This document shows, piece after piece, positions 26,914 to 29,372 of a stretch of 64,000 nt of DNA (positions are counted from its first letter, which is position 1; each line of letters begins with the position of its first letter). The notes below the pieces were generated by a model. It ran no database searches and had not been told where the DNA came from. It worked only from the letters and a program-made list of their open reading frames with translations. A program made the translations under genes and the position numbers. Source of the DNA: Chitinophagaceae bacterium (lineage in GTDB: Bacteria > Bacteroidota > Bacteroidia > Chitinophagales > Chitinophagaceae); assembly GCA_019752045.1 (NCBI GenBank), contig JAIEMP010000004.1, positions 124,001-188,000 of the forward strand. Direction: 5' to 3'.

Positions 26914-27764
26914 TATCCTTTTACTCTGCTTCCGGGACAGCCTACTTTTTTATTCTTTTTAAATGATGCAATACCCGATGTGCGTTCGTACCAGTCTACA
27001 AAAGGTCTCCATGTAAAAGTGAGTTGCAGAAAATAATACGCATCCTTGTTTTTTTCATTACCTCTTAACGAACCTGCAGCAGGGTAAGCACCCGGCCCAC
27101 GGTATGCCATTGCAACGGCTTGCGGACCTCTTGCTGCCAGTAATATATTTTGATCTGCATAAGTGGTACTCACATCATCAATATAATCTGTAAAAGTTTT
27201 CCGGTAACCGAACTCTAATCCTACACGCAGATCTTCGTTTAATGCATATTCTGCACCAATGCCAAACGGTATGGCAAACTGTGTAAGTTTATAATTTTTT
27301 TTACCGGGAATGACTCCTTGTCCTTCCGTGCTCAACGGTTTCAGAAAAACACGATTGCCTGCATTATCTAAAGCAGAAGGTTTAAAATGAAACAAGGCAC
27401 CGCCTGCAAAAACATAAGGTGTCCACCATTTATCATTCAAGCTGAAAATATTATACTGAGCTCCCAGTTCCCACTCAAACAAGCTGGTTTGAAAACTGAA
27501 GTTGCGGCTTTTTAAAGATGCATTTTTATTTTTTGCATCATCTGCACGTAGTGATCCAAGGCTGAGATGTGAGCGTAATAAAAAATGTTCGGATAAATCA
27601 TAACGGGCGCCTAAGCTTCCAACAAATTTTGCCTGTTTCAGTGAAAATGCATTTTGTTTTAGATCGCCCTGATAGTTTGCAAATCCCGCCCTGAAAGAAA
27701 GGTGAAAATTCTGTGCATTCAACAGGAGCGGAAAGAAAGCCAGAAGCAGTACTGTTTTTTTCAT
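26910..27764 (-). CDS. DUF6089 outer-membrane beta-barrel protein (PorG-like)
   Basis: 284 residues with a signal peptide (KKTVLLLAFFPLLLNAQ). The mature part has alternating beta strands; YQGDLKQNAF, WTPYVFAGGALFHFKP and YRKTFTDYIDDVST are the conserved DUF6089 segments, shared with the second family member at 36963-37700. It ends in a GCPGSR motif close to GCPPVR of that paralogue's type. PorG, in this family, is an outer-membrane partner of the PorK/PorN ring of the type IX secretion system, and gldKLMN lie in this window. Whether this copy or the other serves secretion is unknown. Confidence 0.82.
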   Translation of the reverse strand: MKKTVLLLAFFPLLLNAQNFHLSFRAGFANYQGDLKQNAFSLKQAKFVGSLGARYDLSEHFLLRSHLSLGSLRADDAKNKNASLKSRNFSFQTSLFEWELGAQYNIFSLNDKWWTPYVFAGGALFHFKPSALDNAGNRVFLKPLSTEGQGVIPGKKNYKLTQFAIPFGIGAEYALNEDLRVGLEFGYRKTFTDYIDDVSTTYADQNILLAARGPQAVAMAYRGPGAYPAAGSLRGNEKNKDAYYFLQLTFTWRPFVDWYERTSGIASFKKNKKVGCPGSRVKGY

Positions 27765-27822
27765 ATGTGAATAATTGGATGAAGCAGTGTAACAAAGAAC
27801 GGCAAAAATGTGCTGAAAGTAT

Positions 27823-27849
27823 AAAACCGACCTGAAAGGGGTCGGTTTT
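27823..27849 (-). terminator. Bidirectional-type terminator ending the tRNA/GIY-YIG array
   Basis: Perfect 10-bp arms AAAACCGACC and GGTCGGTTTT around a 7-base loop, with terminal U-tracts on both strands. On the minus strand it lies just beyond the last broken tRNA copy, so it can end the array transcript. It also lies upstream of the DUF6089 gene. Confidence 0.8.
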
Positions 27850-27857
27850 ATTTGTTG

Positions 27858-27952
27858 TGGCCTCGCCAGGAATCCCCGCCCGTACCGAACGTAACAACTG
27901 ATAATGTTTGAAATTTATTTTGGTACGTTCGGGCGGGGAACCTGAATCTGGA
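27858..27952 (-). pseudogene. Broken tRNA-Arg copy A, 3' part with a 63-bp palindrome in the T-loop
   Basis: The + strand reads TGGCCTCGCCAGGAATC, then a 63-base insert (27875-27937), then GAACCTGAATCTGGA. Without the insert this is the 3' half of the intact tRNA at 28654-28725, with one change. The 5' half (acceptor, D arm, anticodon) is gone and replaced by the end of the GIY-YIG gene. The insert is a palindrome with CCCGCC/GGCGGG outer arms and CGAACGTA/TACGTTCG inner arms. Confidence 0.85.
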
Positions 27953-27953
27953 A

Positions 27954-28196
27954 TTATATGGTAATAATTTTTTTCAAAAATCTTCTTCCGGCTGCGGACT
28001 TGAAATATTTTTCTCTGGAAATTGCTTCCATCTCTGTTTCGAACTGTTCAATATAAATGATTTGGAATGGAATGTATGGTCTGATGGATGCCGTCATTCC
28101 CGAGTTATGTTGAGCTAATCGTTTTTCAAGATCTTGACAATGACCTTTGTAAAAATAATCATGTGCAATGCTTTTTAGAACATAAGCAAAATACAT
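27954..28196 (-). CDS. GIY-YIG nuclease-domain protein, copy 2
   Basis: 80 residues from the ATG at 28196, 17 bases after the end of tRNA copy B. The GIY-YIG fold is complete in miniature: Y5-V-L, Y16-K-G, catalytic R26 and E62 (in REKYFKS). It is almost identical to copy 1 (28394-28636): residue 49 is Ile instead of Phe, and the last residues are IITI instead of MIAS because the junction with the next tRNA remnant differs. A longer frame begins inside the tRNA copy and reads AGIPGEATT through it, but that is tRNA sequence. Small stand-alone GIY-YIG proteins act in DNA cleavage and repair, and some are homing-like. Role here: possible selfish element at tRNA-Arg. Confidence 0.85.
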   Translation of the reverse strand: MYFAYVLKSIAHDYFYKGHCQDLEKRLAQHNSGMTASIRPYIPFQIIYIEQFETEMEAISREKYFKSAAGRRFLKKIITI

Positions 28197-28213
28197 GCAT
28201 GAAAATTTAGTAG

Positions 28214-28399
28214 TGGCCTCGCCAGGAATCCCTGCCCGATCCAAACGTTCCAAATGTTGATTATTTGAAATGAAGTTGATGCGTTTGGGCGGGGAACCTG
28301 GATCTGGAGCCCGTCCGAATATTTCGTCCGGGCGGACTTCGGAAACTCTTATACTATCCCCGTCCGACTGGCGTCAGCCGGGGGGGCATTGTACTACGA
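28214..28399 (-). pseudogene. Broken tRNA-Arg copy B with three palindromic insertions
   Basis: Removing three inserts restores almost the whole tRNA-Arg(CCG) sequence except the first bases of the acceptor stem. The inserts are 28231-28293 (63 nt, T-loop), 28310-28336 (27 nt, 3' side of the anticodon stem) and 28360-28387 (28 nt, D-loop). Each is GC-rich and palindromic, with CCCGYCCG-like starts and G-rich ends, and the tRNA bases on either side join exactly. The 5' edge fuses to the GIY-YIG copy 1 gene, whose TAG stop is the tRNA's own TAG at positions 8-10. It cannot yield a functional tRNA unless inserts are removed. Confidence 0.88.
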
Positions 28400-28636
28400 T
28401 GCAATCATTTTTTTCAAAAATCTTCTTCCGGCTGCGGACTTGAAATATTTTTCTCTGGAAATTGCTTCCATCTCTGTTTCGAACTGTTCAAAATAAATGA
28501 TTTGGAATGGAATGTATGGTCTGATGGAAGCCGTCATTCCTGAATTGTGTTGAGCTAATCGTTTTTCAAGATCTTGACAATGACCTTTATAAAAATAATC
28601 ATGTGCAATGCTTTTTAGAACATAAGCAAAATACAT
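28394..28636 (-). CDS. GIY-YIG nuclease-domain protein, copy 1
   Basis: 80 residues, ATG at 28636, 17 bases after the 3' end of the intact tRNA-Arg and on the same strand, so it may share the tRNA's transcript. Motifs: Y5-V-L, Y16-K-G, R26, N31, E62. The ORF ends in the 5' part of tRNA copy B, which supplies its stop codon. Length fits the small UvrC-N-like/YhbQ (UPF0213-like) group. Near identity with copy 2, including most silent positions, shows a recent tandem duplication of the unit tRNA plus nuclease gene (440 bp between copies). Confidence 0.87.
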   Translation of the reverse strand: MYFAYVLKSIAHDYFYKGHCQDLEKRLAQHNSGMTASIRPYIPFQIIYFEQFETEMEAISREKYFKSAAGRRFLKKMIAS

Positions 28637-28653
28637 GCATCAAAATTTAGTAG

Positions 28654-28725
28654 TGGCCTCGCCAGGAATCGAACCTGGATCTGGAGCTTCGGAAACTCTT
28701 ATACTATCCATTGTACTACGAGGCC
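28654..28725 (-). tRNA. tRNA-Arg(CCG), intact
   Basis: 72 nt without encoded CCA. The acceptor GGCCTCG pairs fully with CGAGGCC, discriminator A. D arm GTAC/GTAT; anticodon loop TTCCGAA gives anticodon CCG (codon CGG); T arm CCAGG/CCTGG with loop TTCGATT. The anticodon stem AGAGT/GCTCC has one A-C mismatch at its base and one G-U pair. It heads an array with two GIY-YIG genes and two broken copies of itself. Confidence 0.93.
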
Positions 28726-28754
28726 AAAAAAATTTGAAAATTGATTAATTTGAA

Positions 28755-28789
28755 AATTTGAGAATTACGAAAAACATCATTCTCAAATT
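28755..28789 (-). terminator. Hairpin at the end of the marC gene
   Basis: Perfect 11-bp inverted repeat AATTTGAGAAT / ATTCTCAAATT with a 13-base loop, overlapping the marC stop codon. Only a weak T-rich tail follows on the minus strand, so termination efficiency is uncertain. It separates marC from the tRNA gene. Confidence 0.5.
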
Positions 28790-29372
28790 ATTTAATCAAC
28801 CCTCCTGCATTACCAGCAAATATTTTTACGGCAATGGCCAGCAATATTACGCCAAAAAATTTTCGTACAGCAAGTAAACCTGCAGGTCCTAACAGTTTCT
28901 CAATCCACTTTAATGATTTCAATACAAAGAAAACGAGTATCAGGTTTAAAAGAATAGCAATCAGAATCACCAGATCGGAATAATTGGCACCTAACGACAT
29001 AATGGTAGTAAGTGTGCCGCTTCCCGCAATAATCGGGAAAGCAATTGGCACCACAGTTCCGCTTTTTGCATTTTTATCACTTTTAAAAAATTCATGACCC
29101 AATACCATTTCCAGTCCTAATACAAAAATGACAATGGATCCTGCTACAGCAAATGAACGACGATCAACACCCAGCATATTTAAAAAGGATTCGCCTACAA
29201 ATAAAAACAGAATCATTAATGCTCCTGAAATAAGTGTAGCCTTAAATTCACGGATGGCTCCCATTTTATCCTTCATGGCAATTAATAAAGGAATTGAACC
29301 AATGATATCTATCACTGCAAACAATGTAAAGGATACAGTGAGGAGCTGACTGAGATTGAAATCAAGATTCAT
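28788..29372 (-). CDS. MarC family integral membrane protein
   Basis: 194 residues with six hydrophobic helices. FTLFAVIDIIGSIPLLIAM at the N-terminus and VVPIAFPIIAGSGTLTTIMS in the centre are the two conserved MarC/UPF0056 repeats. The physiological role of MarC is not established; the old link with multiple antibiotic resistance is not supported for the E. coli protein. It is transcribed toward the tRNA-Arg gene. It is not obviously linked to the B12 genes upstream, 59 bases away. Confidence 0.9.
   Translation of the reverse strand: MNLDFNLSQLLTVSFTLFAVIDIIGSIPLLIAMKDKMGAIREFKATLISGALMILFLFVGESFLNMLGVDRRSFAVAGSIVIFVLGLEMVLGHEFFKSDKNAKSGTVVPIAFPIIAGSGTLTTIMSLGANYSDLVILIAILLNLILVFFVLKSLKWIEKLLGPAGLLAVRKFFGVILLAIAVKIFAGNAGGLIK

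Follow-up and report, generated by a model that had tools for sequence, protein, structure and literature searches.

Candidate homing-type elements at Bacteroidota tRNA genes: small GIY-YIG nuclease genes accompanied by hairpin-bearing spare tRNA copies

A free-standing GIY-YIG homing endonuclease is known from the tRNA region of bacteriophages: SegB of phages T4 and T6 is reported to be often associated with tRNA genes, and in T6 a 718-bp unit of tRNA-Tyr plus segB amplifies in tandem by recombination (PMC2988022, PMC13096335, both cited from excerpts). In fungal mitochondria, reading frames termed mORFs replace the 3' end of atp6, atp9, cox2 and nad3, and encode LAGLIDADG endonucleases except at atp9, where the enzyme is of the GIY-YIG type (PMC3630166, likewise from an excerpt). 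Here we describe an array of tRNA-Arg(CCG) and GIY-YIG nuclease genes in a Chitinophagaceae bacterium, lying in a 64,000-nucleotide (nt) stretch of contig JAIEMP010000004.1 that we refer to as the window. We propose, with a probability of roughly 0.6, that the array belongs to a family of homing-type selfish nuclease genes that spread among tRNA genes with tRNA copies as homology arms, each element consisting of one GIY-YIG gene of about 80-90 amino acids (aa) together with a full or partial copy of its tRNA, and that the window holds one such element doubled in tandem.

Set against what these excerpts describe, SegB is the nearest system in kind, being a free-standing GIY-YIG enzyme that adjoins tRNA genes and takes part in tandem amplification. 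SegB, however, is a phage protein listed with a target between tRNA genes, whereas the window element is chromosomal, encodes a catalytic domain of about 80 aa only, and belongs to a family found at single tRNA genes with a spare, hairpin-bearing copy of the same tRNA; phage-labelled records reach at most 39% identity to the window protein. The mORFs are nearest in architecture, with an endonuclease reading frame after a gene that has an imported 3' part of foreign origin and with the displaced native part downstream, but they occur at mitochondrial protein genes, whereas the present family occupies bacterial tRNA genes, occurs also in mirror image and carries hairpin-tagged copies. Small GIY-YIG proteins of the UPF0213 type (PDB 1ywl, 1zg2) share the domain and size class of the window protein, and a paralogous clade in the same genomes, mostly about 97-116 aa long, has no tRNA linkage. 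REP-like palindromes (PMC2817692, PMC3733652) and mitochondrial hairpin elements (PMC2800124) are short and GC-rich like the inserts seen here, which differ in that their hosts are spare tRNA copies and their positions are loops or junctions. In searches of the open-licence PMC literature, no title or abstract opening described such tRNA-gene elements in bacterial chromosomes, which is weak evidence.

Coordinates are positions in the window, and the element is read throughout on the minus strand. In that direction an intact tRNA-Arg(CCG) (28653..28725; ARAGORN, and Rfam RF00005 at 61.4 bits) is followed, after a short spacer (28637..28652), by nuclease copy 1 of 80 aa (28394..28636; Pfam PF01541, E 1.5e-12), a broken tRNA-Arg copy (28213..28403), nuclease copy 2, also of 80 aa (27954..28196; PF01541, E 9.9e-13), and a tRNA remnant that by sequence comparison is 5'-truncated with a complete 3' end (27857..27953). 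A terminator-like hairpin (27821..27851; arms 27821-27832 and 27840-27851) follows this last remnant. The initial annotation had proposed such a tandem layout, and all of the parts it named were recovered by ARAGORN, Rfam, Pfam and a repeat search. Its 440-bp unit corresponds to a direct repeat of 268 nt, 97% identical, recurring at 440-nt spacing; the stop codon of copy 1 (TAG, 28394-28396) does coincide with positions 8-10 of the next tRNA copy; and the two proteins, called almost identical, agree at 76 of 80 residues and differ at 4. A spacer of 17 bases stands if the tRNA is taken as 72 nt, and becomes 16 nt with the tRNA end given by ARAGORN.

The broken tRNA copies were likewise present as proposed, although it had been missed that they are near-perfect tRNA sequence split by GC-rich, hairpin-forming inserts. 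The first aligns with the intact tRNA at 71/73 tRNA positions and is interrupted three times: in the D-loop between two conserved Gs (28359..28386), at the 3' edge of the anticodon loop (28310..28336), the boundaries of both sliding by 1 nt, and in the T-loop (GGTTC^GATTC; 28231..28293). A fourth insert, marked by inverted repeats, occupies the T-loop of the second broken copy (27875..27937). Also unseen in that first reading were the mirror-image layout, the many tRNA species, the scars, and the identity of the intact tRNA with that of an empty allele, all of which are described below. The window array exceeds chance, in that the same layout recurs in other genomes.

We searched the window protein against 59 genomes, its own included, and 38 gave matches. 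The 102 loci fetched (L001-L036 and L077-L143, without the duplicate L002) yielded 114 profile rows; a broken gene can give more than one row, and L109, a match with two stops, gave none. Rows were called type A where an intact same-strand tRNA lay within 250 nt upstream of the gene, and type B where the tRNA lay just downstream. By this measure 57 rows were type A, 13 type B, 13 close to where a fetched stretch ends, namely 11 at contig ends and the two long open reading frames (ORFs) L112 and L132, and 31 without a tRNA, the last including second members of tandem arrays. A tRNA in antisense was found in 1/114 rows. One related clade of paralogous, mostly longer GIY-YIG proteins (20 rows; approximate likelihood-ratio support, SH-aLRT, 98), delimited on the tree after the linkage labels were known, had no linked member, 17 rows being without a tRNA and 3 at contig ends. 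Outside it, 66/81 loci were tRNA-linked, 8 lay at contig ends and 7 were not linked, which contradicts a scattering of these genes without regard to tRNAs, the outcome that the initial annotation had named as refuting its view. A clade of about 100-aa GIY-YIG proteins includes two members adjoining tRNA-Asn (L141, L143) and two without a tRNA (L100, L103), perhaps a lineage with recent gain or loss of the tRNA habit.

Full-length tRNA matches number 33 in the 4.16 Mb of the window's own genome (G000), and from this we estimate that roughly 0.1% of random points would have a same-strand tRNA in the 250 nt upstream of them. Six of its 7 GIY-YIG matches, at 5 places, were linked or within a linked array, at Arg-CCG (twice), Arg-TCT, Ser-GCT, Ser-GGA and Met tRNAs, the seventh (L007) belonging to the unlinked clade; a later profile search gave 8 matches in this genome. 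Linked tRNAs cover 15 amino acids, 13 of them (Arg, Ser, Leu, Met, Glu, Lys, Pro, Val, Ala, Asp, His, Phe, Asn) in the 59-genome survey, with Cys and Gly added by a wider sample of the phylum. For that sample, a profile of 29 linked-protein rows was run against 247 genomes of 122 genera, and matched at E <= 1e-12 in 154/247 genomes and 85/122 genera, figures that count proteins and not linkage. Linkage was scored at 49 loci, comprising the 29 best matches (among which L206 repeats L015) and 20 chosen by hand, some for being arrays; a same-strand tRNA stood at the cluster in 44/49 (27/29 of the best matches, 17/20 of the chosen). The others were L198, L228, L230 and L231, without a tRNA, and L201 at a contig end. 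Arrays of five units occur in G291 (450-nt period, with one intact tRNA-Leu) and in G225 (about 365 nt, tRNA-Met), and a draft-assembly artefact is unlikely for these because each of the two genomes is a single contig. A type B unit at tRNA-Pro(CGG) (L046:2501-2818) was also seen on a contig of a metagenome-assembled genome labelled Elusimicrobia, which suggests either an element outside Bacteroidota or a misbinned contig.

A second copy of the tRNA on the far side of the gene usually accompanies this linkage. The intact tRNA was aligned to up to 300 nt of that side, in a set that included loci of the named relatives, and a pass required a score above all 60 shuffles; 54/64 type A rows and 14/14 type B rows passed, L014 and L097 narrowly. 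Type A spare copies keep their 3' end and may lack the 5' end, and type B spare copies keep their 5' end and usually stop before the gene (L033 is an exception); the two layouts are mirror images. Many spare copies are truncated at the 5' or 3' end, or have no pairing acceptor strand. The end of the gene overlaps the downstream tRNA in 11/23 rows that have one. At L039, L040 and L043 a further broken, palindrome-bearing tRNA copy lies upstream of the intact tRNA, towards its promoter, and these loci look as if struck by both type A and type B events.

Orthologous loci without the nuclease, a check proposed in the initial annotation, do exist. Next to the gene for MarC, 15/20 fetched loci carry tRNA-Arg(CCG): 2 are occupied (G000, G009), 11 are plain, with no GIY-YIG match anywhere in the fetched stretch, 1 is a scar (G010), and L150 ends at a contig end. 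In one plain case, G012, whose neighbouring MarC is 99% identical, there is a plain tRNA-Arg and no GIY-YIG match in the 3.6 kb fetched, and the tRNA runs straight into the sequence found after the last remnant in the window, with the terminator-like hairpin directly 3' of it. By eye, the intact window tRNA matches that of G012 at 73/73 positions, and sequence differences begin in the flank, at the 4th nt beyond the 3' end. The Arg-TCT locus is occupied in G000 and G007, 9 genomes have that tRNA without a GIY-YIG match, and G004 and G008 lack such a tRNA; the Ser-GGA locus is occupied in G000 and G003 and unoccupied in 6 genomes with that tRNA, where orthology is less sure in far relatives. 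Presence is thus patchy, with precise empty alleles at three orthologous loci, as for free-standing homing endonuclease genes.

These comparisons bear directly on the simplest alternative, a chance tandem duplication in situ of a tRNA gene together with a bystander gene, for which the 97% repeat at 440-nt spacing speaks. Such an origin, if confined to this strain and without an empty counterpart, had been offered as a refutation of the selfish-element proposal. It fails on the empty orthologous sites, and the spread over 15 amino acids and the reconstitution of the tRNA in both orientations contradict it further; after the survey we consider it very improbable.

The occupied loci, for their part, appear to record co-conversion of flanking sequence from putative donors. 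In G003 the intact tRNA equals that of the empty G007 and G001 loci, and the last 53 nt of the spare copy match the G000 tRNA at 53/53 positions and its own intact tRNA at 48/53; by eye, the flank of this occupied locus shows an early 1-nt indel relative to the empty one. By eye, the intact tRNA of G007 is followed by a foreign-looking terminator similar to the one in G000, and the native terminator, as in the empty G003, stands behind the broken copy. The G010 scar (L151) has an intact tRNA, a hairpin and a tRNA 3' half with a different T-stem, a T-arm that by eye has been replaced, and no nuclease or GIY-YIG match. A second scar, on contig C2 of the window's own genome (L241:300-591), consists of an intact tRNA-Met, about 70 nt, and a tRNA-Met copy that lacks its 5' part and bears a hairpin in its anticodon arm, again with no nuclease and no GIY-YIG match. 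Decay is also seen, with stop codons inside the match at five listed nuclease places. Locus comparison supports mobility of the putative element, and presence or absence with the tRNA kept, foreign tRNA parts, arrays, decay and loss would together make up the life cycle of a homing-type selfish gene.

A quick tree of the 114 proteins (83 columns, many forks open) suggests that lineages keep to their targets. The amino-acid label of the linked tRNA required 29 changes on it, and none of 300 shuffles needed fewer than 45; for the anticodon label the corresponding figures were 38 and at least 55 (74 rows, with tandem second copies dropped), and for the linkage label 5 and at least 16 (97 rows). 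As judged on this tree, nuclease clades follow tRNA species, with some switches between similar tRNAs (Arg CCG and CCT, Ser isoacceptors), and in the Met clade types A and B are intermixed. The correspondence also fits an enzyme that serves the host, processing, turning over or stress-cleaving the neighbouring tRNA or its transcript, with linkage serving co-expression; the overlap of gene ends with downstream tRNAs and the purifying selection described below are in keeping with that. Close species differ in whether they carry the gene, and scars and decayed copies occur; these findings speak against a host function, which also leaves the second tRNA copy across the gene unexplained. We regard it as improbable.

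The nuclease itself is small. The GIY-YIG catalytic domain (PF01541) is the sole Pfam family matched by both window proteins. Copy 1, which has the residues conserved in the tRNA-linked family, finds solved relatives of the UPF0213 type (1ywl, E 5e-6; 1zg2, E 0.013) and no NCBIfam match at E <= 0.01; its named close relatives, at 70-83% identity, come from Sphingobacteriales, Chitinophagaceae, Algoriphagus and others. Across linked proteins of at least 70 aa (n=79), Y5, Y16, G18, R26, H30, E62 and K66 are present in 99-100%. The Tyr, Tyr-Gly, Arg and Glu among these seven we take to be the active-site residues of GIY-YIG enzymes. The domain match and the conserved residues place the predicted proteins in the GIY-YIG superfamily. 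The ratio of nonsynonymous to synonymous substitution rates (dN/dS) was 0.05-0.18 in 11/14 pairs, the remaining 3 giving no defined value. For 5 of those 11 the ratio is unreliable, dS exceeding 1.5; the other 6, with dS below 1, give 0.08-0.18. These ratios indicate that the gene is under purifying selection.

Might such a gene be moved passively, as cargo? In that case tRNA flanks would let RecA-dependent recombination, after natural transformation or conjugation, carry the gene between genomes, with a nuclease role that is unrelated or indirect. Foreign tRNA pieces and flanks need homologous recombination alone, an intact tRNA identical to the empty allele fits an absence of target cutting, and the protein is a bare catalytic domain. 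Passive cargo does not readily account for the same kind of nuclease being carried repeatedly and under purifying selection, and other genes would be expected as cargo, though the second-copy search spanned just 300 nt, so that longer or other cargo would escape it. We judge this explanation unlikely, if the least so of those weighed against the homing-type reading. A phage or plasmid vehicle found only weak matches, at 32-39% identity, in Listeria, Aeromonas and Sinorhizobium records. These weak relatives (H1-H10) are labelled phage or plasmid, and some of the records are chromosome-sized.

The inserts in the spare copies follow a rule of their own. Inserts of 10-120 nt with matched flanks were placed on the tRNA cloverleaf and called self-folding when at least 40% of their bases paired; 39 were placed, from 29 loci, and 33 were self-folding. 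With a boundary slide of 1-2 nt allowed, every self-folding insert (33/33) falls within a loop or junction or borders on one (25/25 when each tRNA and site is counted once); 5000 rounds of random placement under the same slide gave a mean of 20.6/33 and a maximum of 30. Both placements in stems belong to the six inserts not called self-folding. Inserts are found mainly in the D-loop, between the two Gs, and in the T-loop, after TTC; their sequence varies between lineages, and several inserted tRNA copies remain near 100% identical to the tRNA. Protection of an mRNA tail from RNases P and Z was rejected as the sole purpose of the inserts, as several 3'-truncated type B copies, upstream of the gene, bear them.

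This regularity also fits an addiction pair, in which a toxic nuclease would be restrained by a structured RNA, the hairpin-studded tRNA copy, and maintained by post-segregational killing: inserts at loops or junctions leave stems uninterrupted, and several copies keep close to full tRNA identity. Many copies are truncated or have no pairing acceptor strand, hence no common fold is kept, and the scars show that the nuclease can be lost. An addiction pair seems to us slightly less probable even than a host function.

The window palindrome (CCCGCCCGG...CGGACGGG) is GC-rich and 26-29 nt long, and 21 strict-pattern copies are dispersed in the window's own genome (L048-L068), with no tRNA on the fetched 3-kb loci. 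A G precedes it in 21/21 and follows it in 19/21, and a G^G preference would explain the D-loop insert site alone. Only 2/21 dispersed copies sit at a hairpin loop, a position shared by 27% of random sites; a general loop preference of the palindrome is not supported, and a host repetitive extragenic palindrome (REP) was rejected as the only source of the inserts. Several dispersed copies appear to lie inside coding sequence or another GC-rich hairpin repeat. The same genome has 8 matches to Y1_Tnp, the transposase type of REP/RAYT systems.

Among 14 genus members, G000 (21 matches) and G009 (34 matches at 33 places) have the most palindromes, and they are the only 2/14 that carry the Arg-type nuclease gene. 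Palindromes outside the locus were counted by hand in 5/11 Arg-type carriers and 9/57 non-carriers (Fisher p 0.04). Two family members without the Arg-type nuclease are also palindrome-bearing, G022 with 18 palindromes and no GIY-YIG match, and G032 with 11 copies, so the palindrome can be abundant without the element. Together with the absence of outside copies in 6/11 carriers, these genomes led us to reject the nuclease as mobiliser of the palindrome, for which there is a weak hint at most. In three of the 11 carriers, the draft genomes of L038, L042 and L043, strict-pattern copies were found (by coordinates) solely at the element, and for this reason the palindromes probably came with it.

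Taken together, these observations can be arranged as a life cycle. The gene, likely co-transcribed with its tRNA, would encode a nuclease that cuts one or both DNA strands at, or close to, a tRNA gene lacking the element, and homologous-recombination repair would then copy the element in, using tRNA sequence as an arm. The outcome of this second step is visible when loci are compared: one tRNA is intact, 5' or 3' of the gene, and one piece is displaced or imported. Targeting would reside mainly in the tRNA arms, so that a lineage would remain with one tRNA or move between similar tRNAs, as the tree suggests. Loop hairpins would stop the spare copy from acting as a tRNA, break up the repeat and lower recombinational loss, and may shield the spare copy from tRNA processing or re-cutting. 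Finally, the repeats would permit tandem arrays, decay and scars, all three of which were seen. The initial annotation's minimal selfish element stands as far as a tRNA-bound nuclease is concerned, bordered by an intact tRNA and trailing broken copies; that the nuclease drives insertion, with its cutting step, cut site and self-immunity, we infer.

Several findings weigh against this homing-type reading. The strongest objection is that the intact tRNA of occupied loci is identical to the empty one (window and G012; G003 and G007 or G001), so that a nuclease cutting the tRNA body would cut its own locus too. This identity argues against simple cut-the-tRNA homing, and would place the cut site into the flank, or imply a structural substrate, self-cutting that is tolerated and repaired, or an insertion that is not nuclease-driven. 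The predicted protein is a catalytic domain only. Seven loci outside the unlinked clade have no tRNA (L024, L100, L102, L103, L112, L115, L132), of which L112 and L132 are long ORFs of another kind, and ten type A rows failed the second-copy test (L003, L032, L034, L045, L096, L119, L124, L127, L130 and L041), L041 for lack of sequence and L003 being the Ser-GCT locus of the window's own genome. Searches of phage, plasmid and IMG/VR sequences gave no close relative, with none confirmed in IMG/VR. Between G000 and G012, dS is 0.28 for MarC, a core gene, and 0.21 for two of the three element pairs, which fits vertical descent; the Ser-GCT pair, at 0.83, points to possible replacement or a separate gain. 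Mobility is supported here by sequence comparison; cleavage and transfer are predicted.

Two established classes were rejected. A tRNA-integrating genomic island would need more than the window unit, which has room for the GIY-YIG gene alone and none for a tyrosine or serine integrase, and the repeats at these elements are whole or truncated tRNAs of variable extent, in contrast to the attachment (att) repeats of islands. A group I or II intron is likewise a poor match, as the tRNA beside the gene is uninterrupted and tRNA alone reaches the Rfam gathering score in 27700-28900. We raise, tentatively and with more doubt than confidence, the broader idea that the homing-type elements form a class of bacterial mobile elements in their own right, each some hundreds of bases in length, in which specificity would reside in the carried tRNA copy and not in the enzyme. 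A near-minimal, possibly structure-preferring nuclease would break the DNA, the arms would steer repair to the same or similar tRNA genes, and the loop hairpins, travelling between genera, would be a working part that protects against nuclease, recombination or tRNA processing.

If the homing-type reading is true, a common and overlooked selfish element resides on the tRNA genes of many genomes in the phylum, and would account both for the broken tRNA copies that stand beside intact ones and for the movement of tRNA pieces between species. It would also mean that a nuclease without room for a DNA-binding domain can still hold to one target, and would offer a very small, one-gene model in which to study homing in the bacterial chromosome. 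The confinement of hairpin inserts to loops is a separate puzzle, now open to direct testing.

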